Of a DNA stretch of 44,650 bases, positions 7,940 through 43,262 are shown piece after piece (the first letter of the stretch is position 1; the number at the start of each line of letters is the position of its first letter). This DNA comes from Chloroflexota bacterium (GTDB taxonomy: Bacteria > Chloroflexota > Anaerolineae > Anaerolineales > UBA11579). The notes under the pieces are model-generated. The model saw only the letters and a list, made by a program, of their open reading frames with translations. It was not told the DNA's origin and did not search any database. Location of the stretch: NCBI GenBank assembly GCA_023485685.1, contig JAMCZK010000044.1:1-44650 (forward strand), read 5' to 3'. The translations under genes and the position numbers were made by a program.

Positions 7940-8231
7940 ACGCGCATTATAACGATAATTAGCAATTAGATTTAATGAGTGTTCGAATCAGACACCGTAA
8001 CGAAATGCAACAGCTCACCTATTAGCGATTCTCCAGTAAGGGTTGGCCAAGATGTTGTTTGTTTTTCCTGGGGGTGGGTACTGAACAACTTGACAACATC
8101 ACCACGTCAAATTTCGATTTCCTTGCCTGCTCCAACTCCAGCGGGGGATTAATAGCAGAGTTTCGGCAGTTAAAGGATCAAAGAAGAAAAAATCAAGGGG
8201 TTGGTTTTGAGGGGCTGAAGCAAGCCACCAC

Positions 8232-8259
8232 TTGACAAAATCCAAATTTGGCATACAAT
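8232..8259 (+). promoter_or_regulatory. Sigma70-type promoter of the gntR operon
   Basis: TTGACA (8232-8237), 16-bp spacer, TACAAT (8254-8259). Confidence 0.7.
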
Positions 8260-8300
8260 GATACAAAGATACAATCATACAAAGGCACACTCATACAATC
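8253..8300. repeat. Octamer array ATACAAWN (six units at 8-bp period, the fifth degenerate)
   Basis: ATACAATG ATACAAAG ATACAATC ATACAAAG GCACACTC ATACAATC. Confidence 0.9.
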
Positions 8301-8312
8301 GGACTGGAGGCC

Positions 8313-10162: not shown

Positions 10163-10178
10163 GGTTTCACGTGAAACA
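10163..10178. promoter_or_regulatory. parS-like site 1
   Basis: GGTTTCACGTGAAACA; 15/16 to the consensus TGTTTCACGTGAAACA, perfect 14-bp palindrome. Confidence 0.8.
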
Positions 10179-10192
10179 CCGAAAGGAGTGCA

Positions 10193-12154
10193 TTGAAGCA
10201 GACTTGTGTTGATACTCGGCGAATCATCCTATTCATACTATTCGCCTTTGGCATCGCCTGGGCGTTTGGACTGTGGGTCTACCTAACAGGAGGGATCGTT
10301 AACAGTCCGGAGCTTCTTCAGGGAACCGGTATCACGCTTGCCGTAGCCCTGATCGCCTTGGGCTACATGTGGGCGCCGGCGCTAGCCAATATTCTCACCC
10401 GCACGATCACTAAAGAAGGTTGGAAAGACGCGGGCCTCCGTCCGCAAATCAGGAAGGGATGGGGGGCCTGGGTCGCCGCCTGGTTCTCGCCTGCTATCTT
10501 GACCTTCCTTGGTGTACTGGTTTATTTCGCTGCCTTTCGCGATCAATTCGACCCGGAGCTTGGCGCCCTGCGCCAGATGATGCAAGCTGTGGAAGCGCAG
10601 GCGGGGGAGGCCATTCCTTTCAGCCTATGGACCCTGGTGCTGCTCCAACTCGGCGTTGGGCTACTCGTCGCTCCGTTGATCAACAGCTTCTTTACCTTCG
10701 GGGAGGAACTCGGCTGGCGAGGTTATTTGCAACCCAAACTTATGGTACTGGGCTATCGGAAAGCTCTATTACTAACGGGTGTCATCTGGGGCATCTGGCA
10801 TTGGCCTGTGATCGCCATGGGCCACAATTTCGGCTTTGATTATTGGGGTGCCCCGTGGACCGGCTTCCTGATGATGACTTGGTTCACCATAACCGCGGGC
10901 ACCATCATCGGCTGGCTAGCCTTACGCGGCCAGAGCGTTTGGCCGGCGGTCATTGCCCACGCGGCCACCAACGGCATTGCCGGGGCCGGCCTTTTATTTC
11001 TTCGAGCGGACGCGCAAGTCAATACCTTGCTAGGCCCGGCGCCTGTTGGCCTGACCGCCAATATCCCCTGGGCGCTGCTGGCAGTTTACCTGCTTTGGAA
11101 AGGCGAGCCTCGGCAACAAGATGTTTCACGTGAAACTACTGTTGCGAGACAGGCCTATTCGCTCCGCTCAGGGCAGGCTCCGCCCGGCGAAGCAAACTCT
11201 ACCCCTGCCAGCCAGGCGCCGAAAAGCGCGATGATTTATGCCCACGGACTCGGCAAGGATTTCGGGAAAGTGAAGGCGGTGGAAGGGCTGGATCTCGAAA
11301 TCCCGGCTGGCGAGGTATTTGGCCTGCTGGGACCCAACGGGGCCGGCAAGACAACTACCATCCGCATGCTCAGCGCACTGATCGCGCCGAGCGCTGGGGA
11401 AGCCTGGGTCGCCGGTCACCGAGTGGGCGAAGCCGACGATCAAATCCGCCGCAATGTAGGCATCCTCACCGAGACGCCCGGGCTCTATGAGCAACTTAGC
11501 GCCGAACGCAACTTGGCCTTCTTCGCCCAGATGTATGATGTTCAAGGCGTAGCGAAGCAAGTGGAGCGTTACCTTCGGATGCTGGGCCTTTGGGGCCGGC
11601 GAAGCGAAGCCGCGGGCACCTTCTCTAAAGGAATGCGGCAGAAGCTGGCTATCGCTCGGGTTCTATTACATGAACCTGAGGTGCTCTTCCTGGACGAACC
11701 CACCAGCAGTCTGGACCCCGAATCCGCGCACTTGGTACGCGACTTCATTTCCGAATTGGGCAAGGAAGGGCGCACCATTATCCTGTGTACCCACAACCTG
11801 GACGAGGCCGACCGCCTCTGCGATCGGGTGGCGGTATTCAAGACGCGACTCTTGGCGGTGGACACACCGACCAACCTGCGGCGTAGGTTGTTTGGGCGCT
11901 CTGTGGTATTCCATTTGGCGGAGGTCAAGAATCAATTTGCGGCAGTCATGCGCCAAAAGGAATATGTTCTCCAGGCAGAAATGGTGGACAACAAATTGAT
12001 CGTCAAATTGGATGACCCGGAAAGGCGCAACCCTGAACTGGTGCGGGAGCTGATAGGTCTGGGAGCTCAAATCCAATTCGTCGGCGAGATGCGCCAAAGC
12101 CTGGAGGATGTGTATTTGCAATTGATGGGTTCGGAAAACGAGGTCCGGCAATGA
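10193..12154 (+). CDS. Fusion protein: N-terminal CPBP intramembrane metalloprotease + C-terminal ABC transporter ATPase
   Basis: Single 653-aa ORF. CPBP motifs EELGWRGYLQPKL, GVIWGIWHWP, HAATNGIAG; then GPNGAGKTTTIRML, FSKGMRQKLAIARVL, LFLDEPTSSLDP. Confidence 0.9.
   Translation: MKQTCVDTRRIILFILFAFGIAWAFGLWVYLTGGIVNSPELLQGTGITLAVALIALGYMWAPALANILTRTITKEGWKDAGLRPQIRKGWGAWVAAWFSPAILTFLGVLVYFAAFRDQFDPELGALRQMMQAVEAQAGEAIPFSLWTLVLLQLGVGLLVAPLINSFFTFGEELGWRGYLQPKLMVLGYRKALLLTGVIWGIWHWPVIAMGHNFGFDYWGAPWTGFLMMTWFTITAGTIIGWLALRGQSVWPAVIAHAATNGIAGAGLLFLRADAQVNTLLGPAPVGLTANIPWALLAVYLLWKGEPRQQDVSRETTVARQAYSLRSGQAPPGEANSTPASQAPKSAMIYAHGLGKDFGKVKAVEGLDLEIPAGEVFGLLGPNGAGKTTTIRMLSALIAPSAGEAWVAGHRVGEADDQIRRNVGILTETPGLYEQLSAERNLAFFAQMYDVQGVAKQVERYLRMLGLWGRRSEAAGTFSKGMRQKLAIARVLLHEPEVLFLDEPTSSLDPESAHLVRDFISELGKEGRTIILCTHNLDEADRLCDRVAVFKTRLLAVDTPTNLRRRLFGRSVVFHLAEVKNQFAAVMRQKEYVLQAEMVDNKLIVKLDDPERRNPELVRELIGLGAQIQFVGEMRQSLEDVYLQLMGSENEVRQ
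11122..11137. promoter_or_regulatory. parS-like site 2 (inside the fusion gene, in the interdomain linker)
   Basis: TGTTTCACGTGAAACT; 15/16 to the parS consensus. Confidence 0.8.
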
Positions 12155-15593: not shown

Positions 15594-16454
15594 ATGATTA
15601 AACGCGTACTTTTTATTTTGCTCGCGCTAAGCCTTGCGCAGGCGGCGTGCACCGTCAGCCTTTTCGCCGCGCCGACGCCGACCGCCACGGAGATCGTGCT
15701 GCCGACGGATACACCCACTTTGGCCGCGACTGCCACCTCTACGTCGACACCGGCGCCGAGCGCTACTCCCAGCCAGACCCCAGAATCCAGCGAGACTCCC
15801 GAGCCTAGCGAGACACCGGAAGATACTGCCACTCCCACCGAGCCGCCCTTCGACCCGTCTGCTCAATACGGTGCTCCCACGCTGTTTGACAGTATGGACA
15901 CCGACAAGAACTGGGCCAGCGTTGGCGGCGGGTTGCCAGACAACGAGTTCATCCGGTTGGCGCTGGGCGGCGGAAACCTACATGTAACCGGAAAGCAGGC
16001 GGATTTCGATACCTGGTGGTACACCGCCTCGGCACCGAGTGATTTCTTTATCCAGATCAAAGTAAACAGCGGCAACTGCAGCGGCAAGCAACAATATGGT
16101 CTGATCGTACGCGGCCCGGCCTCTGCTGGAGCTGGGGCTCGTGGGTATATCTACACGTTCTCGTGCGACGGGTTCTACCGCCTGGATCGTCTGGACACCA
16201 CTGCTCCATTCACCAAGGTCGAATTGGTCGGCTGGACCAAATCCGATTTCATCAACTCTGGTGACAACGAGACCAATGTCCTGGGTATCCGAATGGTGGG
16301 CGAAGACATCACGCTGTACGCCAACGGTTTCGAGGTCGAGGACCTGGATGATGGCAAGTTTGCCTCCGGGCGGTTTGGACTATTCGTGAATGCCGGCTCC
16401 CCGGGCAATTACACTTTCAATGTGGACGAGCTGTCGTACTGGGATTTGGATTAG
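15594..16454 (+). CDS. Secreted lipoprotein-like protein with Thr/Pro/Glu-rich linker and LamG/DUF1080-like domain
   Basis: MIKRVLFILLALSLAQAAC signal; TPSATPSQTPESSETPEPSETPEDTATPTEP linker; DDLDDGKFASGRFGLFVN-type C-terminal module. Confidence 0.8.
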   Translation: MIKRVLFILLALSLAQAACTVSLFAAPTPTATEIVLPTDTPTLAATATSTSTPAPSATPSQTPESSETPEPSETPEDTATPTEPPFDPSAQYGAPTLFDSMDTDKNWASVGGGLPDNEFIRLALGGGNLHVTGKQADFDTWWYTASAPSDFFIQIKVNSGNCSGKQQYGLIVRGPASAGAGARGYIYTFSCDGFYRLDRLDTTAPFTKVELVGWTKSDFINSGDNETNVLGIRMVGEDITLYANGFEVEDLDDGKFASGRFGLFVNAGSPGNYTFNVDELSYWDLD

Positions 16455-16525
16455 AAGGCCAGTGAATAGTGGACAGGGATAAGTGAACAGGAAAAACCCA
16501 AATCATTGAACTTTCCTTTTATTAC

Positions 16526-16559
16526 AACGAGCGTACAATGTGCGCTCGTTTTGTTTTTC
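16526..16559 (+). terminator. Rho-independent terminator
   Basis: AACGAGCG-tacaatgtg-CGCTCGTT followed by TTGTTTTTCTT. Confidence 0.8.
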
Positions 16560-21023: not shown

Positions 21024-21106
21024 GCCGAAGTGGCGGAACTGGCAGACGCGCACGACTCAAAATCGTGTGCCCTTCGGGCATGTGGGTTCGATTCCCACCT
21101 TCGGCA
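21024..21106 (+). tRNA. tRNA-Leu (CAA anticodon)
   Basis: GCCGAAG TG GCGGAACTGGCAGACGC G CACGA CTCAAAA TCGTG variable arm GTGGG TTCGATT CCCAC CTTCGGC A; 7-bp acceptor pairs perfectly; CCA not encoded. Confidence 0.95.
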
Positions 21107-21121
21107 CTCAAAGACACTATC

Positions 21122-21220
21122 GCCTTCGGAACGGGCAGACGCGCACGACTCAAAATCGTTCTTCCCTACGCACGGCTGGGCCGAGCTAATGAAGTGGGGG
21201 GTGGATTCCCGCCTTTGGCA
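21122..21220 (+). pseudogene. Degenerate tRNA-Leu(CAA)-like copy lacking the 5' acceptor and canonical T-loop
   Basis: TTCGGAACGGGCAGACGCGCACGACTCAAAATCGT...GGGGGTGGATTCCCGCCTTTGGCA. Confidence 0.75.
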
Positions 21221-21244
21221 AATGGGGAGATAATAAATGTTCTG

Positions 21245-22372
21245 ATGCGTCGCTCAACTTTTGTTTCCGAGTTCCTGTTCCACTATATCCCGGCAATGCT
21301 AAGTATTGCTTTCACGACCGCTCTTTTGTATTTGATGCGGGACGTGCTGGATACACCCCTAATTGCCCTGTTGTACTTGCTCCCGGTAGGTGCAAGCGCT
21401 TCTGTTTGGGGGCTAGGAGCCGGCATTATCGCGGCATTAACAGCTTTCCTTGCCTTTAATTATTTCTTCATTGAGCCTAACTTCACCCTGGTTGTTCACA
21501 GCCCAAGTGATCTGGTGGGCTTGTTTGTATTCCTGATTGTAGCGGTTGCCATCAGCCAGCTTGTTGGCCGCGCCCGAGCCGGGCAAGCCTTGGCAGTGGA
21601 AAAGGCACGCCTTACTGAAATCGCATCGCGTGCGCAGGTCCTGGAGGAGAGCGACCGCATGAAATCCGCGTTACTTTCTTCTGTATCCCATGAGCTAAGA
21701 ACTCCTCTCGCCACGATCAAGGCAGCCACCACCAGCCTGCGCAGCGGCGAAGTGAAATGGGAATCGAAAGCCAGACAAGAGTTGTTAGAAGCCATAGAAG
21801 ACGAAACTGATCATCTTAATCTCCTGGTTGGCAACCTGTTAAACATGTCGCGCATTGAGGCCAACGCGCTAAAACCCGAGCGCCAGTGGAATCTTTTGCC
21901 CGAGATCGCGGGGTCCGTTGTTGCGCGCATGCACCATCCACTCGAGGAACATCAGATCATCATAGAAATTCCAGAGGATCTGCCGCTCGTGCCCGTGGAT
22001 TATGTTCAGATGGAACAAGTCTTCACGAACCTTATAAACAACAGTTTCAAATACGCACCGGCAGGTACGACCATTCGAATCCGCGCCGAAAAAGAAGGTG
22101 CTGATACTGTGCGGGTGCAAGTTGTAAACGAGGGCCCGCCTGTGCCAGAAGAGGACCTGGACCGGATATTTGAAAAATTCCACCGCATCACCGCCGCGGA
22201 TCGCATCACCGGAACGGGTTTGGGATTATCGATCTGCAAAGGTATTATCGAAGCTCATGGAGGAAAGATCAGGGCAGAGAATCTGCCCGGTGGTTTTGCG
22301 ATCATTTTTCTATTGCCCCTTTCCATGGACGGCAAACTAGCCCCTGAGCCTCCACGCGAGCCGGAAGCATGA
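21245..22372 (+). CDS. KdpD-like sensor histidine kinase (DUF4118 membrane domain; no N-terminal KdpD/Usp part)
   Basis: FNYFFIEPNFTLVVHSPSDLVGLFVFLIVA; LLSSVSHELRTPLATIKAATTSL; TGLGLSICKGIIEAHGG. The ORF call from 20861 is extended across tRNAs. Confidence 0.9.
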   Translation: MRRSTFVSEFLFHYIPAMLSIAFTTALLYLMRDVLDTPLIALLYLLPVGASASVWGLGAGIIAALTAFLAFNYFFIEPNFTLVVHSPSDLVGLFVFLIVAVAISQLVGRARAGQALAVEKARLTEIASRAQVLEESDRMKSALLSSVSHELRTPLATIKAATTSLRSGEVKWESKARQELLEAIEDETDHLNLLVGNLLNMSRIEANALKPERQWNLLPEIAGSVVARMHHPLEEHQIIIEIPEDLPLVPVDYVQMEQVFTNLINNSFKYAPAGTTIRIRAEKEGADTVRVQVVNEGPPVPEEDLDRIFEKFHRITAADRITGTGLGLSICKGIIEAHGGKIRAENLPGGFAIIFLLPLSMDGKLAPEPPREPEA

Positions 22373-23061
22373 GCACGGCCCCGCATATCCTGGTCATCGA
22401 TGACGAACCGCAGATCTTGCGGGCGCTGAAGACCATCCTGGGCGAAAAGAAATTCAAGGTCACTACTGCGGCGAACGGGGAAGAAGGCTTGGCGCTGGCA
22501 GCAGCTAATCCGCCGGATATTGTGATCCTAGATCTGGGCTTGCCGGATATAGATGGATTCGAAGTATGCAGCCAGCTGCGGGAATGGACGCAGTGCCCGA
22601 TCATCGTGCTGTCCGTGCGGGAAAGTGAACGCGACAAAGTGGCTGCCCTGGACAAAGGAGCCGATGATTACCTGGTCAAACCCTTTGGCATTGAAGAGTT
22701 GCTTGCCCGAGTGAGAGTCGCACTGCGGCATGCAGGGCGTGCAACAACCAACAAAGAAACCAAGGTCACTGCGGGCTCAATCGTCATCGACCTGGCTTGG
22801 CATCGCGTGACTCGCGATGGGGAAGAAGTAAAGCTCACGGCAACGGAATACAAGCTACTCGCTTATTTAGCGGCCAATGCAAGGCGAGTGCTCACACACC
22901 AGGCCATTCTTACCCACGTGTGGGATCCAGCGGATGCTGATCACGTGGAATATCTCCGCGTTTACATGCGGCAACTGCGTAAGAAACTGGAAGCGGATCC
23001 GGAGCGGCCGGATTTCATCATTACCGAACCTGGAGTCGGATATCGCTTCCTGGCAGACTAA
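22369..23061 (+). CDS. KdpE-like response regulator (OmpR family)
   Basis: HILVIDDEPQILRALKTIL...IVILDLGLPDIDG...KPFGIEELLARVRVALR...DPERPDFIITEPGVGYRFL. Confidence 0.95.
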   Translation: MSTAPHILVIDDEPQILRALKTILGEKKFKVTTAANGEEGLALAAANPPDIVILDLGLPDIDGFEVCSQLREWTQCPIIVLSVRESERDKVAALDKGADDYLVKPFGIEELLARVRVALRHAGRATTNKETKVTAGSIVIDLAWHRVTRDGEEVKLTATEYKLLAYLAANARRVLTHQAILTHVWDPADADHVEYLRVYMRQLRKKLEADPERPDFIITEPGVGYRFLAD

Positions 23062-23079
23062 TTCCTGTTTTTTTTCTGC

Positions 23080-23107
23080 AAAGCGCCCAGAATTGGGCGC
23101 TTTTTTA
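23080..23107 (+). terminator. Rho-independent terminator of the HK-RR pair
   Basis: AAAGCGCCCA-GAAT-TGGGCGCTTT followed by TTTT. Confidence 0.85.
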
Positions 23108-23149
23108 TTTGTTCTTTATGAAGTCGGGCAATACTCTTGTGACCGTTTT

Positions 23150-23359
23150 ATGGGAACTGACTACGATTTGCACTTGGAGAATTTTGATTTGGCGGAAATG
23201 CTTTCCTGGCTTGGTTCGATTGCGATCATCGCTGGCTTTTTTTGGATCCAGGTGCAAGTTGATCAGCTAGGCAAAGGCTGGGCACACACCATTTTGTTTT
23301 TGCTTTCCATGGTCGCCGAGGTGTACCTACTCTGGTTGTGGAATTCAAGAGATATTTAG
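23150..23359 (+). CDS. Small two-TM protein (69 aa), uncharacterised
   Basis: MGTDYDLHLENFDLAEMLSWLGSIAIIAGFFWIQVQVDQLGKGWAHTILFLLSMVAEVYLLWLWNSRDI. Confidence 0.55.
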   Translation: MGTDYDLHLENFDLAEMLSWLGSIAIIAGFFWIQVQVDQLGKGWAHTILFLLSMVAEVYLLWLWNSRDI

Positions 23360-23389
23360 ACCTACAGGAATGTCGCCGGGAGAATTGTT

Positions 23390-25687
23390 TTGATTTCAAT
23401 CGTTCTGTTATTAATTTTTGTTTTTATCGCCAGCAAACTTGCGCCGCGCGAAAAAGCGGAACATGCCAAAGTGCATGGTGCGGGTCAAATCGGGTTGTTG
23501 GCTGCTCTAGCTCTATTTGGCGTGGACTATTTCACCTCGTATTACTACGCCACCGGCGAAATGATGAGCGCCCTGCACCCTTATGGGCTGGAGCACAATG
23601 CTTACATTGCAGTTGGCATCATAGCGTTTGCCAACTTTGTGTTTGGCGCGCTGTACATGTATTCGCTCGGACCTTTCAACGAGGGAGGTGGTTCCTATAC
23701 CGCCTCTATGCGGTATTTATTCCCCACTCTCAGTCTGATCGTCGCAGTAACACTTATTCAGGACTATGTGCTCACCATCGTTGTTTCAGCTTTGTCGGGC
23801 GGGGACCAATTACTCTCGGCCTTGAATGCGTACGATGCCAGCTGGGTTTGGCACTTCATCATCGGCGCGGCGCTAGCGGCGGTGACCTGGTACATAACGA
23901 TTCGCGGCCGGGGTGAATCGGCGCGAGTCGTGTTCACTCTCATTGGCACTTTTGTGCTGCTCACCATCACTATGGGCGTTGGCCTTTTCTTCGCATCCGC
24001 CAGCGGGGTACCGCCTGTGCCCGCAGAGGCCACGCGACACGTTGCCTCGCTTGGCGAGGCCATGTTGCACATGTTAACGGCATCGATGAAGGGCATGGTA
24101 GCTCTCACAGGTTTAGAGGCAGTTTCCAACGGTGTGCAGTTCATCATCGATGAAGACTTCAGCCTGATAAAATGGGGAAAGAAACGCCTGCCAAGACTCA
24201 AGGGTTTGTGGAATTTTTACAGCGGGAAGTCAGGTATCGCAAGAGTGGTGCAAACATCATTCCTCTTTTATGGAGGAGTCACCACTCTATTTCTGACCGC
24301 ATTCTCTTTGAGGTTCAACGTGTTCGACGGAACTCTTGGGCGAACGTTAGTGGGCAACCTGGCGTTTATTGGCTTTGGCCAGTTGGATGGAGGGGTCATC
24401 CTATTTTGGGCCTACCAAATTTTAGCGGTGCTGATGTTAGCAGCCGCGTCCATGACCGCATTTCAGGATGCGCAGGCGACCGAATGGCGCGATGTCGCAA
24501 TCGGTGAAATTCCCGAGGCAATTGTGTATCGGGATCCACGAGGAACATTCACGCGGTCCGTCACCATTACGTTTGGGATTGCTGTTTTGATCATGTTCCT
24601 GGTGCGCGGGCAAACCACGGTCGCCATCCCATTCTATGGAGTGGGTGTATTTATGCCCATCATGGTGATGGGGCTGGCGGTGCGCCGCCATATCCTGGAA
24701 CACGCCAAGGGACGGGCGCGCACCATTGGCGCGGCAGGTGCTGGCTTTGCCGCAGGTTTGGCAATCGTTGTATTCCTTGGACAGCTTATTGGAAAGTGGC
24801 ATGAAGGAGGGTGGATCGCCCTGGTTTCCTTCACCATTTTGGCCGTCATTGCCCACCTGATGCTGCTCTCCCCAGTGGGACATCGCGAGGCGAAGCAAGT
24901 CGCGCGCATTGTTCGCGAAAAGGCGCGTGTAGAAGGGGGCATGGCTTCCATCGTTGAATGGCAGGCCTTCAAGATGCAAGAATATCGTTACAAATTACTG
25001 ATCGCTATTTTCAGCATCATGGAATTCTTTGGAATTCGCCAGCTTACGCGCCGCCATTTGGCGGTTGCCATTCCGGGCGCCGGTGGATACTCAGTACCTC
25101 AATTGCTCTTTCTATCACGCGCCGGCGAAATAAATGGCGTCAAAGTTACGCCGCGGCGCGGCAAGGCAGGAAATATGAAAGCTGAACCGACAGAAACGAA
25201 ACTCGAGCATTATCAGCTACCCCCTCGCTATGTACGACACCGGATTTTGGTGCCGGTCAACGGAGTGCATCAGGGCACCCTGACCTCATTGCGCTATGCC
25301 CATTCGCTCTCCAATGATGTAACTGCTGTGCATGTCTCGGATACTCCGGAGGAGACGGAGAAGCTAAAGAGGGATTGGGCGCAATGGGGTGACGGTGTGC
25401 GCCTGGTGGTGCTGGATTCCCCACACAACATGGTGTTGGAGCCGTTGATCCACTATATCCAAAAGATCATGGATGCCAAGCAGCAGAATGAAATCATCAC
25501 TGTCGTGGTGCCGCAACTGATCCGCCCACGCTGGTGGTCCAACCTGACGCGCACTCAGTTGGCTGCGCTGTTGCGAATGGCGCTGCCCTTCGAAACAGGC
25601 ATAGTCATTACTGACGTGCCTTATTCGCTGGAAACTGAAGAACCACCGAAATTATCTTCTAACGATTTAGAAAAGGAAAAGAAATGA
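23390..25687 (+). CDS. APC-superfamily K+ permease, KimA-like, with C-terminal cytoplasmic (Usp-like) domain
   Basis: GVDYFTSYYYATGEMMSALHPYG...YSLGPFNEGGGSYTASMRYLFPTLSLIVAVTLIQDYVLT; C-terminal HRILVPVNGVHQGTLTSLRYAHSL; start may be slightly different. Confidence 0.8.
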   Translation: MISIVLLLIFVFIASKLAPREKAEHAKVHGAGQIGLLAALALFGVDYFTSYYYATGEMMSALHPYGLEHNAYIAVGIIAFANFVFGALYMYSLGPFNEGGGSYTASMRYLFPTLSLIVAVTLIQDYVLTIVVSALSGGDQLLSALNAYDASWVWHFIIGAALAAVTWYITIRGRGESARVVFTLIGTFVLLTITMGVGLFFASASGVPPVPAEATRHVASLGEAMLHMLTASMKGMVALTGLEAVSNGVQFIIDEDFSLIKWGKKRLPRLKGLWNFYSGKSGIARVVQTSFLFYGGVTTLFLTAFSLRFNVFDGTLGRTLVGNLAFIGFGQLDGGVILFWAYQILAVLMLAAASMTAFQDAQATEWRDVAIGEIPEAIVYRDPRGTFTRSVTITFGIAVLIMFLVRGQTTVAIPFYGVGVFMPIMVMGLAVRRHILEHAKGRARTIGAAGAGFAAGLAIVVFLGQLIGKWHEGGWIALVSFTILAVIAHLMLLSPVGHREAKQVARIVREKARVEGGMASIVEWQAFKMQEYRYKLLIAIFSIMEFFGIRQLTRRHLAVAIPGAGGYSVPQLLFLSRAGEINGVKVTPRRGKAGNMKAEPTETKLEHYQLPPRYVRHRILVPVNGVHQGTLTSLRYAHSLSNDVTAVHVSDTPEETEKLKRDWAQWGDGVRLVVLDSPHNMVLEPLIHYIQKIMDAKQQNEIITVVVPQLIRPRWWSNLTRTQLAALLRMALPFETGIVITDVPYSLETEEPPKLSSNDLEKEKK

Positions 25688-26346
25688 ACGTAATTGTTGT
25701 AGGTTGCGGCCGCGTGGGCGTGGAACTCGCTCACACGCTGCATAAAGAACACATAGTCACGGTCATCGACAAGAACGCCGGAGCCTTCGACCAGCTCGGT
25801 CTGGATTTCCTGGGTCGAACGGTGCAAGGGGAAGCGCTGGACCGCAAAGCGTTGCAGCGCGCAGGCGTTGAGACAGCCGGCGCGCTGGCTGCAGTGACTT
25901 CCTCGGACAACGTGAATGCCATCGTGGCGCGCATCGCTCGAGATGTCTTCAACGTAGAACGAGTGGTAGCGCGCGTCTATAAGCCAAGCCGCGCTCCGAT
26001 CTACGAAAGGCTGGATTTGCAAACTGTGTCCTCGTCTTCCTGGGCGGCTCAACGCATCAAACAAATGATGACGCATCCAGGATTGACCAGCTTGAGCATT
26101 ACTGCCGAAGGCGAAGTGCAAATTTATGAAATGAAAGTCCCTGAAAAATGGGTGGGGCATCCGCTTTCGAAATTCCTTCCCGAAGGAAAAACCAACCCCG
26201 CCATCATTTTGCGCAATGGGAAAAGTATTTTGCCGACGTCAGCAACTATTTTCGTGGCCGGAGATGTAATGCAATTAAGCGCAACCATGGATGGCGCCAA
26301 CGCGCTGCGCGCCATTATACATGCCGACGGGAAAGAGAAGGAGTAA
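25684..26346 (+). CDS. TrkA/RCK family K+ regulatory protein (NAD-binding), 1
   Basis: MNVIVVGCGRVGVELAHTLHKEHIVTVIDKN; C-terminal TrkA_C-like; 4-bp overlap with the permease. Confidence 0.92.
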   Translation: MNVIVVGCGRVGVELAHTLHKEHIVTVIDKNAGAFDQLGLDFLGRTVQGEALDRKALQRAGVETAGALAAVTSSDNVNAIVARIARDVFNVERVVARVYKPSRAPIYERLDLQTVSSSSWAAQRIKQMMTHPGLTSLSITAEGEVQIYEMKVPEKWVGHPLSKFLPEGKTNPAIILRNGKSILPTSATIFVAGDVMQLSATMDGANALRAIIHADGKEKE

Positions 26347-26348
26347 AC

Positions 26349-27032
26349 ATGTACGTACTCATTGTTGGTGGCGGGCGCACCGGTTCCCATTTAGCTTCGT
26401 TGTTGCTGACAGGCGGTTATGAAGTCCGTGTAGTCGAAAAACGTCACGAGGTATTGCAGAACCTGCATCAAGAACTGCCCACGGAAGTTATTTACGAAGG
26501 TGACGGGACAGATCCTCAGGTACTGGAAGCTGTCGATATAAGACGTGCCCAGGTATTCGCGGCCGTGGATAACGACGACGCCGACAACCTGATGGCGGCC
26601 TTTCTTGCGCGGCGCCAGTTCGGCGTCAAGCGGGTTATTGGCCGCGTCAACAACCCGCGCAACGCCTGGCTCTTCACCGAGGAGTTCGGCGTCGATGTGG
26701 CTTTAAATCAAGCCGACATTATGGCGAAACTGATCGAGGAGCAGATGTCTCTTGGCGACATGATGACGATGTTGAAACTGCGTAAAGGGGAGTTCTCCCT
26801 GGTCGAGGAAAAAATCTTCCCCGGGGCCTTCGCGGTAGGCAGGTCAATCAAAGACCTGCCCCTGCCTTCGAACTCGATGATTTGCGGCATCATTCGTCAT
26901 GGCGAGACTGTGCTTCCACGCGGAGATGCCGTCTTGCAGGAAGGCGATGAGATATTAGCTTTAGTGGACGATGACTCCCGGACAGTCGTTGCGGAATTGC
27001 TTGGCCGGCCCGAGGAAGCTGAACAGCATTAA
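26349..27032 (+). CDS. TrkA/RCK family K+ regulatory protein (NAD-binding), 2
   Basis: MYVLIVGGGRTGSHLASLLLTGGYEVRVVEKR; start at 26349 preferred over the ORF start 26148. Confidence 0.92.
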   Translation: MYVLIVGGGRTGSHLASLLLTGGYEVRVVEKRHEVLQNLHQELPTEVIYEGDGTDPQVLEAVDIRRAQVFAAVDNDDADNLMAAFLARRQFGVKRVIGRVNNPRNAWLFTEEFGVDVALNQADIMAKLIEEQMSLGDMMTMLKLRKGEFSLVEEKIFPGAFAVGRSIKDLPLPSNSMICGIIRHGETVLPRGDAVLQEGDEILALVDDDSRTVVAELLGRPEEAEQH

Positions 27033-27112
27033 TCGCATTCCTTATCTTTTCTCGGTTAAGGTGATGGAGCAGTTGGCGCGGGCGTGCCAGCCGGTGAAGT
27101 CGGCACGGGGTT

Positions 27113-27536
27113 TCAGGTTGGGGGCGAGGTGGGTGGCGGAGAAGTTGGCTGGGGTTGCGGCGTACTTGTTGACGGTGGCGTCTGAGTGGGTACTGGATCG
27201 TCGCGTTCTTCAATAGGCACGGGTTCCAGGCCAACGACGTGTTTGATAGGAATCTGGGGAGGCTGCAAGTCGACATAGGCAACTTCGTTGGGCTTCGGTT
27301 GGGGAAATTGCAATGCCACTCAGAAGACCAGGCCCATAATGACTGCCAATCCCCAAGCCCAGCGCACGGCGCGACGTTCCGCTACAGCACCGCCACGGTC
27401 GGTTTGTCCATGACGTAAAGGTTTCCGGCGCGTCTTGAGGCTGAGGAAACTGAAATAGGGGGCGAGAGATGACGGCTAGAAGTCCAAATGCGATGAAGCC
27501 AATCCCGATAATGGTCTCCCAATAACTGGCGCGCAA
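27113..27536 (-). pseudogene. Decayed two-TM, Pro-rich-tailed membrane protein gene
   Basis: MRASYWETIIGIGFIAFGLLAVISRPLFQFPQPQD; a frame change to KTRRKPLRHGQTDRGGAVAERRAVRWAWGLAVIMGLVF-TGA-VALQFPQPKPNEVAYVDLQPPQIPIKHVVGLEPVPIEERDDPVPT... Confidence 0.6.
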
Positions 27537-27796
27537 CGTGGACCAAGCCTTTTAGCCCGGACTTAGATTTCGATGTGGCGCAGCAACCACAAGAATCGCC
27601 ACATGTGTAATAAGAGAAAAACCGCGGGCTAAGGCCTCCTCGGCACGCGTGGTCAGGGCATGCAAGGGGCGCGAGGGCTGGGTGTCGGCAAGCCCGACCA
27701 TGGGTAGAAGGCAGTAGTGCGTACAAAGAGAGCAAGTTGCTTTTGTTATCTTCGGCTTTAAGCCTTAGACTAAAATAAGGTGGTGTAAAGGGGTTT

Positions 27797-27829
27797 GGGG
27801 ATTGCTTCGCCAGCTTCGCGGGCTCGCAA
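27797..27829. repeat. Dispersed repeat of the GGAGATTGCTTCG... type, truncated copy B
   Basis: GGGGATTGCTTCGCCAGCTTCGCGGGCTCGCAA. Confidence 0.6.
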
Positions 27830-27841
27830 AAACATTGGAAC

Positions 27842-28987
27842 TTGAAAGGCGATGAATTCGTGGTCACCATTGAGAAAACAGATACCGAATCAAAGAAGGA
27901 TGTGCAGCGCTTTGTAACGCTGCCCTACAGGTTGTATAAAGATTGTCCGCAGTGGGTGCCGCCTTTGCTGATCGACGCGCAAATGTTCCTGAACCGCAAG
28001 AAGCATCCCTTTCATGAACATTCCGACGTGGATTTCTTTGTGGCGGTGCGGGATGGAAAGGTAATGGGACGCATCGCGTCGATAGAGAACAAGCCTTACA
28101 ACCGTTATCACAACAAAAAGACGGCCAACTTCTATTTATTCGATACGGTCGAAGACCAGTCAGTGGCCAATGGTTTGTTCGAGCGCGTTTTTGAGTGGGC
28201 GCGCTCCCGCGGCCTGACCCAGGTCGTAGGGCCCAAAGGGTTCGGCCCACTGGATGGCTACGGGATCCAGGTGGAAGGGTTCGAACACCGCCAGGTGATG
28301 ACGATGATGAACTACAACTATGCCTATTACCCGCGTTTGGTAGAAGCGTTGGGATTTCGCAAAGAAGTGGATTTTGTTTCCTGCTATGCAAACCGCGAGA
28401 CTTTTCGTTTTCCGCCGCGAGTACACAGCATTGCTGAACGCGTGCAGAAACGCGGCACCTTAAAAGTAAAGCGATTCAAGAATAAAAAGGAGTTGGTGAG
28501 CTGGAGCGCTCGCATCGGGAAGGCTTACAACGACGCGTTTGTCAATAACTGGGAATATTATCCTCTGACAAAGCGCGAAATTGATTTCGTTGTGCAGAAT
28601 ATTATGGTAGTTGCTGATCCCCGTCTCATCAAGGTCATCTTGCACGACGAGGACATTGTTGGGTTCTTATTCGCGTTCCCGGATCTCTCGGCGGCGATGC
28701 AGCGCGCCCGCGGCCACCTGTTTCCCTTCGGGCTGCTGGACCTGATGTTGGAGCTGCGACGCACGAAGTGGGTGGCGGTCAACGGGGTCGGCGTTCTACC
28801 GGAATTCCAAGGGCGCGGCGGGAACGCGCTGATGTACTCCGAGATGGAGAAGACGCTGCGCGACTACCAATTCCAAGAAGGGGATCTGACCCAGGTAGCC
28901 GAATCCGCGTGGGAGATGCGCAGGGATCTGGAAAATCTGGGGGGAAAGCCCTATAAGAATCATCGCGTGTTCGTCAAAGACCTTTAG
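27842..28987 (+). CDS. GNAT-like N-acetyltransferase family protein (uncharacterised)
   Basis: WVPPLLIDAQMFLNRKKHPFHEHSDVDFFVAVRDGKVMGRIASIENKPYNRYHNKKTANFYLFD; VGVLPEFQGRGGNALMYSEMEK. Confidence 0.8.
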   Translation: MKGDEFVVTIEKTDTESKKDVQRFVTLPYRLYKDCPQWVPPLLIDAQMFLNRKKHPFHEHSDVDFFVAVRDGKVMGRIASIENKPYNRYHNKKTANFYLFDTVEDQSVANGLFERVFEWARSRGLTQVVGPKGFGPLDGYGIQVEGFEHRQVMTMMNYNYAYYPRLVEALGFRKEVDFVSCYANRETFRFPPRVHSIAERVQKRGTLKVKRFKNKKELVSWSARIGKAYNDAFVNNWEYYPLTKREIDFVVQNIMVVADPRLIKVILHDEDIVGFLFAFPDLSAAMQRARGHLFPFGLLDLMLELRRTKWVAVNGVGVLPEFQGRGGNALMYSEMEKTLRDYQFQEGDLTQVAESAWEMRRDLENLGGKPYKNHRVFVKDL

Positions 28988-28990
28988 GTT

Positions 28991-29785
28991 ATGTCTTTTT
29001 CATTCGTCCACATCAGCGATCATCATTTGCTTCACAGCGCGGATGAATTGTTGCTGGGATTTTCGCCCGGCCATGCATTCCGCAAAGTGCTGCGATTCAT
29101 CAGTGAGCATCTAGCCAGGGAGATCGACTTCATCGTTTCGGGCGGAGATCTGGTGGAGATTCCGGACCTTGTTTCTTACGAAACCGCCAAGCGCTTGATG
29201 GATTTACGCCCGGGATCGCTGGCACCGGGTCCAGGATTCGTGCGTGCGGAAGGCCTAAATGGGCTCCCTATTTATTTCCTACCGGGAAACCACGATGACC
29301 GCAAGAATTTCTATCGCTCGTTATACGTTGAGCAAACCATGTTGGGATTGATGAATGCCTACTTTGAACATGATGGCATTCGTTTCCTGTGCCTGGACCT
29401 CGGAACCGAAATCAAAGGCGTTTTGAGTGAAGAAACGTTTGGTTTCCTAAAGGCTTGCCTTACCGACCAACCGGCCATCATTCTGTCGCACCAACCAGTT
29501 GTCAGGATAGGGGCAAAGTGGCTGGATAAATATCTCGCTAAAAGGTTGGGCCGTTTTTGGAAAATTCTGGCCCAGAAAAAAGTACTTGGAATCCTTTCGG
29601 GCCACGTACATATTAGCTATGACCAAGTGGTGAATGGCATTCAAGTGATGGGAACGAGGTCAACGGCTTTCCCCTTTGCCCCATTGGGCGAGAAGGTGAT
29701 CTGCCTGTGGCCACCTCACATAAGGGTGATCCATATCAAAAAGGGTGTATTGAGTAGCCGGCTGATTGAAGTTCCCCTGGATTAA
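28991..29785 (+). CDS. Calcineurin-like metallophosphoesterase
   Basis: FVHISDHHL, FIVSGGDLVE, FLPGNHDDRKN, ILSHQP, LSGHVHISYD. Confidence 0.92.
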   Translation: MSFSFVHISDHHLLHSADELLLGFSPGHAFRKVLRFISEHLAREIDFIVSGGDLVEIPDLVSYETAKRLMDLRPGSLAPGPGFVRAEGLNGLPIYFLPGNHDDRKNFYRSLYVEQTMLGLMNAYFEHDGIRFLCLDLGTEIKGVLSEETFGFLKACLTDQPAIILSHQPVVRIGAKWLDKYLAKRLGRFWKILAQKKVLGILSGHVHISYDQVVNGIQVMGTRSTAFPFAPLGEKVICLWPPHIRVIHIKKGVLSSRLIEVPLD

Positions 29786-30174
29786 TCCCCTGTGGATAAC
29801 TACGGGCCGGCTGTGGATAACCGGGTTTGCATGGGGAAAGCTATCTCATAATCCATTAATTATCCGCTGGGACGGGTGCGCCCCTTTGGGGAAAAATAGT
29901 GGCTCTTTTATAGAAAGAAGAGGCAAACCTCCCCCCAGCCTTTTTGTGCAGTTGTCCCCTTTTTCTCTACAATATAGGGTTGAAAAGAAGCGTCTCGAGA
30001 ATCGCTATATTTGGGGATTAACCTTGATAGGTAGCCATATATATGCCCTTCTTTTGTAGAAAAGGACGTATACGACAAATCCACAAGGACTACTATTACG
30101 ACTAGGGTCTAGTTAACAAAGCAAATAGGTGTAGAGTATAAAGAGTTTCTTATTACAGAATTTTGGAGGTTAGG
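29786..30174. other. oriC: Candidate chromosomal replication origin (oriC)
   Basis: Roughly 390-bp intergenic region; perfect DnaA boxes TGTGGATAA at 29791-29799 and 29812-29820; near-matches TTATCCGCT (29860-29868) and AAATCCACA (30077-30085); AT-rich stretch 29965-30165. Confidence 0.6.
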
Positions 30175-30858
30175 ATGTCTTTTACCTTTACCTGGTACGG
30201 ACATGGCACTCAAGGGTATCTCATCGGTAAAAACAAGTTAGTCGTTGATCCATTCTTCACAGGCAACCCGGCTGCGTCCAGCAGCGTCGACGTTATTGAG
30301 GCCGATTTTATTCTGGTGAGTCACGGGCACGGGGACCACGTCGGAGACCTGGAGAAGCTGGCCAAAGCTACCGGCGCCCTGGTGATCTCCAACGACGAGA
30401 TCGCGCGGTGGAGTGAAGGTAAGGGTCTCAAAGCACACGGGCAGCATATAGGCGGCGGTTATCAATATCCGTTTGGGTATTTAAAGCTAACTCAAGCAGT
30501 GCATGGTTCCGAACTGCCGGACGGGTCCAATGGCGGCAACCCGGCAGGCTTCCTGATCACCACGCCGGAAGGACAGAAGATTTACGCAGCCTGTGACACC
30601 GGTCTATTTGGGGACATGAAGCTGATTGGAGAAGAAGGAATCGATTTGGCGGTGCTGCCCATTGGGGACAACTATACGATGGGGCCCGACGACGCGCTAA
30701 GGGCCGTGAAGCTCATCCAGCCCAAGCATGTGGTGCCGGTGCATTACAGCACCTGGGATTTGATCCAGCAGGACGCCAATGCTTGGGCGCAACGCGTAGA
30801 AGCGGAAACCAAAGCCAAAGCGCATGTGCTCAAGCCCGGGGAAAGTCTGAGTTTGTAA
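30175..30858 (+). CDS. UPF0173-type metal-dependent hydrolase (metallo-beta-lactamase fold)
   Basis: MSFTFTWYGHGTQGYLIGKNKLVVDPFFTGNP...LVSHGHGDHVGD...GDNYTMGPDDALRAVKLIQPKHVVPVHYSTW. Confidence 0.95.
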   Translation: MSFTFTWYGHGTQGYLIGKNKLVVDPFFTGNPAASSSVDVIEADFILVSHGHGDHVGDLEKLAKATGALVISNDEIARWSEGKGLKAHGQHIGGGYQYPFGYLKLTQAVHGSELPDGSNGGNPAGFLITTPEGQKIYAACDTGLFGDMKLIGEEGIDLAVLPIGDNYTMGPDDALRAVKLIQPKHVVPVHYSTWDLIQQDANAWAQRVEAETKAKAHVLKPGESLSL

Positions 30859-41993: not shown

Positions 41994-42128
41994 ACAACGG
42001 ACTGTTTCTTGACCCGAAACTTCTAGAATAAATCTTTTCAAAGGAATAGAGGTCAAAGACCAACTTCTGGAAAAAAGGCCCCTATCGTTGTATACTCAAT
42101 AAAAGCCACTCTTTGAGTGGTTAAACTC

Positions 42129-43262
42129 ATGAAGCTCTCCGTCCTCCAGGAAAACCTAGCTCAAGGGTTGAACATTGTTTCGCGCGCCGTTTCTCCGCGC
42201 AGTACCTACCCTATTTTGGCGAATGTTCTCCTATCTGCGGAGGATGGGCGCTTGAAATTGTCAGCAACCGACCGCGAACTGGGCATTACCTGCTGGCTGG
42301 GGGCCAAGATCGAGGAACCGGGGGCGACCACGGTTCCCGCTCGCACCTTTAGCGACCTGATTGCCACCTTCCCCAATGAAACCATAAAGATGGAGCTGGC
42401 CCTCCGCACCCAGACTCTGCATCTGACCGCCGGCCGCTCCAACGCTGAGATCAAAGGCATTGATGCCCAGGAATTCCCGCCCATGCCCGAACCCGATAAA
42501 TCGGGCGGCATCGAAATGCCGGTTTCGGAATTCAAGGAAATGATCCATCAGGCGGCCTTCGCCGCCTCTCGAGACGATGCCCGTCCAGTGCTTACTGGCG
42601 TGTTGATCACCGTAGAGGGCAAAACCATCACCATGGCGGCGGCGGACGGGTTTAGGCTCTCGGTGCGCAAGGCGCAGCTTAAGACTGCAGCGGATCAACC
42701 GATGCGGGCCATTGTGCCCGGTAAGGCGCTTAACGAACTTGCCCGCATCGCCCCCGACGATGGAGAAGTTGTGCGCATGATGCTGCCGCCCGGCCGCGGC
42801 CAGGTCATTTTCAGTTTGAAGAACGCCGAACTGCGCAGCCAATTGGTCGAAGGCAGCTTCCCGGAATATCAGCAAATCATCCCCAATGGATATAAGACTC
42901 GCACCATCGTCTCCACCGAAGCCTTTCTTAAAGCAGCCAAGCAAGCCGAGATTTTCGCGCGTGAAAGTTCGCACATCGCCCGCGTCGACATCAAACCCGG
43001 CGATGGCAAGTCCCCAGGCACGATGGAGATTTCCGCGCAATCTGAAGAGACCGGATCCAACGACGCCAAGGTGGATGCCACCGTGGAAGGTGTTCCCATT
43101 TTGATCGCTTTCAACGTGCGTTTTTTACGCGAAGTCTTGGACGTAGTGAAGACCCCTAATGTAGCCATTGAGACCACGGCTGCCGCGGCTCCCGGCGTGG
43201 TGCGTCCCATCGACGATGACGACTTCCTGCATGTGATCATGCCCATGCATCTGGGCAAGTAA
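42129..43262 (+). CDS. dnaN: DNA polymerase III subunit beta (sliding clamp)
   Basis: MKLSVLQENLAQGLNIVSRAVSPRSTYPILANVLLSAEDGRLKLSATDRELGI...C-terminal VRPIDDDDFLHVIMPMHL. Confidence 0.98.
   Translation: MKLSVLQENLAQGLNIVSRAVSPRSTYPILANVLLSAEDGRLKLSATDRELGITCWLGAKIEEPGATTVPARTFSDLIATFPNETIKMELALRTQTLHLTAGRSNAEIKGIDAQEFPPMPEPDKSGGIEMPVSEFKEMIHQAAFAASRDDARPVLTGVLITVEGKTITMAAADGFRLSVRKAQLKTAADQPMRAIVPGKALNELARIAPDDGEVVRMMLPPGRGQVIFSLKNAELRSQLVEGSFPEYQQIIPNGYKTRTIVSTEAFLKAAKQAEIFARESSHIARVDIKPGDGKSPGTMEISAQSEETGSNDAKVDATVEGVPILIAFNVRFLREVLDVVKTPNVAIETTAAAAPGVVRPIDDDDFLHVIMPMHLGK

Follow-up and report, generated by a model that had tools for sequence, protein, structure and literature searches.

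A probable chromosomal replication origin marked by a DnaA-box pair and an inverted basal unwinding system in a largely uncultured bacterial order

An intergenic region with a phased pair of DnaA boxes

The window analyzed here comprises 44,650 nt and is one entire contig (C15) of a 76%-complete draft genome of 1.71 Mb in 56 contigs. The region of interest, at 29786–30174, is intergenic. It lies between a metallophosphoesterase (Metallophos) gene (28991–29785, plus strand) and a gene encoding a UPF0173-type metallo-hydrolase of the metallo-beta-lactamase fold (30163–30858, plus strand), where the first-pass annotation had placed it; the gap between the two genes is 29786–30162 and extends to 30174 if UPF0173 begins at its ATG. 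Two perfect DnaA boxes (TTATCCACA) occupy the minus strand, with the outer member of the pair at 29791–29799, a position conserved among relatives, and the inner member at 29812–29820, 21 bp away. The first-pass annotation had read TGTGGATAA at these two places, on a shared strand and 21 bp apart from start to start, each within the 11-mer CTGTGGATAAC, and had listed weaker boxes TTATCCGCT at 29860 and AAATCCACA at 30077; all of these were recovered. The first of the weaker boxes (29860–29868, plus strand) has two mismatches and a presumptive role, and a TTATCC-like motif occurs at a comparable place in several congeners.

The genome contains 11 copies of TTATCCACA and nine of a reversed-pattern control, so single boxes carry little information and the signal rests on the pair and on the unwinding module described below. 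The pair at 29791–29820 is the only place in the whole 1.71-Mb draft where two copies of TTATCCACA are separated by ≤30 bp, against ~0.001 such pairs expected by chance from 11 boxes. It thus forms a DnaA-box cluster that is unusual for its genome, as would be expected of oriC. Of 151 relatives, 100 have same-strand perfect pairs spaced by ≤30 bp; the reversed-pattern control yields none in this set. The original argument from chance therefore stands for the phased pair, and chance was rejected as an explanation of the pair on the strength of the expected number and the empty control. An RNA feature was also rejected, the only Rfam match in the window being a tRNA.

A basal unwinding system beside the boxes

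When the regions upstream of UPF0173 were aligned, 14 genomes shared a 28-nt module without gaps, laid out as a box, a 4-nt spacer and five triplets, mainly CTA. In the window, this module spans 30077–30104 and reads AAATCCACA-agga-CTA CTA TTA CGA CTA, that is, the box, spacer and DnaA-trios of a basal unwinding system (BUS). The BUS box (30077–30085, plus strand) has the opposite orientation to the perfect pair, the agga spacer (30086–30089, plus strand) is usually G+C-rich in relatives (for example, GGCC or GGGC), and the trio array (30090–30104, plus strand) is of the 3′-GAT-5′ type on the other strand. The AT-rich flank at 30105–30162 would be the melting and helicase-loading side; AT content is 66% over 30105–30174 and 67% over 30077–30162. 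Judged by its sequence, 30077–30104 places an unwinding element beside a DnaA box. The weak box at 30077 and the AT-rich DNA noted earlier are both present, but the unwinding element is more exactly the BUS at 30077–30104. The perfect pair itself is not the predicted unwinding site; opening is expected at 30077–30110.

Scored with a 28-nt matrix that was derived from 13 relatives and excluded the window sequence, 30077–30104 reaches 30.2 bits. The next-best site in the window scores 2.7 bits, and the highest score over 200 simulated windows was 18.6 bits.

The B. subtilis BUS consists of DnaA boxes 6/7, a spacer and DnaA-trios (PMC6669920, PMC8287927), a layout that has been predicted in 85% of 2070 origins (PMC8287927). 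Under the rule of Pelliciari et al. (2021), by which a BUS has a box with ≤2 mismatches and ≥3 consecutive 3′-NAN-5′ trios within 16 bp, the site at 30077 is recognized through AAATCCACA (two mismatches), a spacer of 4 and the trios CTA CTA TTA. Three other sites in the window score higher under this bare rule, which was not used alone because it matches elsewhere in the window; specificity comes from conservation. Tandem boxes are the commonest form of the BUS (57%) and are not obligatory (PMC8287927). The tandem box upstream of the BUS is present in most relatives and degenerate in the window, where the tandem-box form is consequently missing. In B. subtilis strand-separation assays, the upstream tandem box is the required one (PMC8287927). 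Its degeneration in the window counts against an assignment as oriC, as does the incompleteness of the draft (76%).

The geometry of the pair and the BUS is conserved across the order

Boxes and BUS are conserved upstream of UPF0173 in ten congeners, all of which keep the layout, and in G011, G012 and G013. Nine of the ten congeners have at least one perfect box upstream of UPF0173, and G001 has one-mismatch boxes only. Across the congeners, a second box, perfect or slightly mismatched, follows 21–22 bp from the first; the pair lies ~330–410 bp ahead of UPF0173, and a further box lies ~80–120 bp ahead of it on the other strand.

With a threshold of ≥14 bits, comparison of 103 loci identified a BUS within 800 bp of the pair in 57 genomes from 12 families. 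The distance from pair to BUS ranges from 212 to 319 bp with a median of 286 bp, which is also its value in the window, and pair and BUS are inverted to each other throughout these cases. The remaining pair loci score ≤10.9 bits, and their distances and orientations are mostly arbitrary. Neighboring genes vary by family: UPF0173 and ychF in the family of the window, and deoxynucleoside kinase, dnaA, GDH or gatB elsewhere. The predicted origin module thus keeps its shape across the order while its neighbor genes change. Conservation of the boxes in related genomes, which the first-pass annotation had named as a check and which would be expected of oriC, accordingly extends to the whole layout, both among the ten congeners and in the wider set.

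Neighboring genes, parS-like sites and dnaA

UPF0173 is the constant neighbor of the site and flanks it throughout the genus, so the position, at first described as noncanonical, is the norm for this lineage. The metallophosphoesterase gene on the other flank belongs to a variable block (21108–29785, or 21024–29785 by a wider delimitation) that reaches from tRNA-Leu/ychF to the site and is absent or different in congeners. In G004, G007 and G008, UPF0173 and ychF flank the site, both pointing outward. The block contains KdpDE-like, APC transporter, TrkA-like, GNAT and phosphoesterase genes and borders tRNA-Leu(CAA). G004, G007 and G008 lack nearly all of it; G010 and G009 carry a longer block of ~14 kb, mostly different in content, between tRNA-Leu(CAA) and the site. 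This arrangement resembles an insertion hot spot beside oriC. Upstream regions of UPF0173 genes were without an origin in 80 loci of a named collection, mostly outside the family of the window, and UPF0173 is therefore a lineage-specific neighbor only. The closest UPF0173 relatives there come mostly from draft genomes assigned to Anaerolineaceae, Anaerolineales and further Chloroflexota, and they suggest a host of Anaerolineales type.

Two parS-like sites with one mismatch each (10163–10178 and 11122–11137, ~20 and ~19 kb from the site) and dnaN (42117–43262, plus strand, 12 kb downstream) were found where the first-pass annotation had reported them. The parS-like sites are the only ones in the genome with ≤1 mismatch, and a parS pair lies 10–25 kb from UPF0173, on the ychF side, in all eight congeners tested. 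The two sites, one directly ahead of a CPBP/ABC fusion gene and the other within it, are ~960 bp apart in the window and 953–966 bp apart in congeners. The genome has one ParB-type gene, on another contig.

Bacterial origins are often located beside dnaA, and one alternative holds that oriC lies there and that the boxes at 29791–29820 are secondary. The pair and BUS do adjoin dnaA in some families of the order, which favors this alternative. In the present genome, however, dnaA lies on a different contig (C10, 2896–4248), and that contig has no perfect box, no parS and no comparable BUS, the matrix reaching a maximum of 5.1 bits; the search for a better box cluster at dnaA thus came out in favor of the candidate. 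In congeners with both genes on one contig, UPF0173 and dnaA are 114–188 kb apart. In other families, the pair–BUS origin adjoins dnaA at L044–L047, L282–L284 and L310, so origin and dnaA have been parted or brought together within the order.

Strand composition

Within the window, GC skew stays positive between ~8 kb and 42 kb without a switch of sign at 29.8 kb, a pattern that may be partly due to the variable block (~21.1–29.8 kb) between ychF and the site. The skew becomes positive near 8 kb and gene direction flips at 7940–8312, as would suit an origin at a strand switch near 8–11 kb, by the parS-like sites. Yet neither a perfect box nor a match to the BUS matrix occurs at 8–11 kb, and in congeners without the variable block the genes diverge at the pair and BUS between UPF0173 and ychF. 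We regard an origin at the strand switch as exceedingly improbable.

Two congeners that are each a single contig of 2.24 Mb (G004 and G007) were sampled in 20-kb stretches every 56 kb, and the half-chromosomes defined by each possible origin were compared. The combined GC-minus-AT contrast of G007 peaks at 350 kb and stays within 90% of the peak over 294–392 kb; the candidate lies at 322 kb. That of G004 peaks at 1078 kb, a value equaled at the candidate (1121 kb). In both genomes, the combined contrast is lower at dnaA, and at a second box pair near a DUF92 gene (see below), than at the candidate. Single contrasts slightly favor dnaA in two instances, namely GC alone in G007 (0.040 at dnaA versus 0.037 at the candidate) and AT alone in G004. 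None of 3000 permutations matched the AT or the combined contrast in either genome; for GC alone, P was 0.03 in G007 and 0.13, not significant, in G004. The skew of these two congeners supports an origin in the candidate region, coarsely, at a 56-kb resolution that indicates a region and not an exact base. The skew check gives a mixed picture, with the combined contrast of the congeners consistent with the candidate and no switch at 29.8 kb in the window. Taken with the bare dnaA contig, the higher combined contrast at the candidate leaves an origin at dnaA scarcely credible.

A second conserved pair before a DUF92 gene

Pair contexts in the genus are of two main kinds, one upstream of UPF0173 (A) and the other directly before a DUF92 membrane-protein gene (B). 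The second conserved pair has the same 21-bp period and no BUS. In this genome, it lies at L302:2550–2600 (G000:C29), ahead of the DUF92 gene at 15731–16549, and one of its two boxes has a mismatch. The same pair occurs at L050–L056, L058 and L060–L062, and at least two same-strand boxes with ≤1 mismatch were found at 18 of the 30 DUF92 loci tested. In congeners, it lies 104–139 kb from UPF0173, on the side opposite dnaA. The DUF92 pair may have a role in titration or regulation.

That a conserved pair of equal spacing exists without a BUS means that not every pair is an origin, and the pair in the window might likewise serve in DnaA titration or in regulation (datA/DARS-like, or controlling UPF0173 transcription), with the true origin elsewhere. 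The two kinds of pair differ, however, in that a BUS at fixed geometry accompanies UPF0173 pairs but none of the DUF92 pairs at the loci examined, and parS and skew both speak for the site at UPF0173 rather than the one at DUF92. We consider a purely regulatory role for the window pair very unlikely.

Proposed working and relation to known systems

The BUS beside the boxes, the conserved layout, the proximity of parS, a dnaA contig without an origin and the skew of two congeners together indicate that 29786–30174 is almost certainly the chromosomal oriC, of a known bacterial kind, as the first-pass annotation had inferred. At this oriC, DnaA would bind the high-affinity tandem pair at 29791–29820 as an anchor. 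DnaA on the BUS box at 30077–30085 would, following the mechanism of B. subtilis, extend an ATP-DnaA filament onto the trios at 30090–30104, and this filament would open the duplex toward UPF0173, where the helicase would be loaded. The inverted arrangement at a near-constant ~286 bp suggests that anchor and BUS are brought together in a single orisome. ParB at the two parS sites 19–20 kb away would probably act in origin segregation. A further-reaching idea, which we advance tentatively and hold to be rather doubtful, is that the origin of this order is a rigid two-part machine with the DUF92 box pair as its dedicated titration or timing partner.

These results assign an oriC to a bacterial order that is for the most part uncultured. 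Among the titles and abstracts of open-licence literature on Anaerolinea, Chloroflexi and Chloroflexota, no paper appeared to report this origin, and an earlier computational prediction may exist. The more novel content lies in the rigid inverted pair–BUS geometry across the order and in the second DnaA-box pair at DUF92. The findings add evidence, from a lineage that is apparently Chloroflexota, for an ancient box–spacer–trio unwinding module. A pair with an inverted BUS ~286 bp away is a signature by which origins could be located in fragmented genomes and growth-rate estimates from read depth calibrated. Its nearly constant spacing also opens a looped or bridged orisome to direct testing.

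The site resembles the B. subtilis BUS in its box, 4-nt and usually G+C-rich spacer, CTA-type trios and AT-rich DNA (PMC6669920, PMC8287927), and most relatives share the tandem upstream box as well. It differs from B. subtilis in having a degenerate upstream box in the window, an inverted anchor pair at a distance of 286 bp, and a location adjacent to neither dnaA nor dnaN. The DUF92 pair can be likened to E. coli datA and DARS (PMC4585315) as a set of conserved boxes away from oriC; its place before a gene start would also allow transcription control. As in the origins cataloged by DoriC and Ori-Finder, an intergenic DnaA-box cluster marks the oriC, with skew and neighbor genes in a supporting role (PMC6323995, PMC10225481), whereas the assignment made here is based on a pair–BUS geometry that extends across the order.
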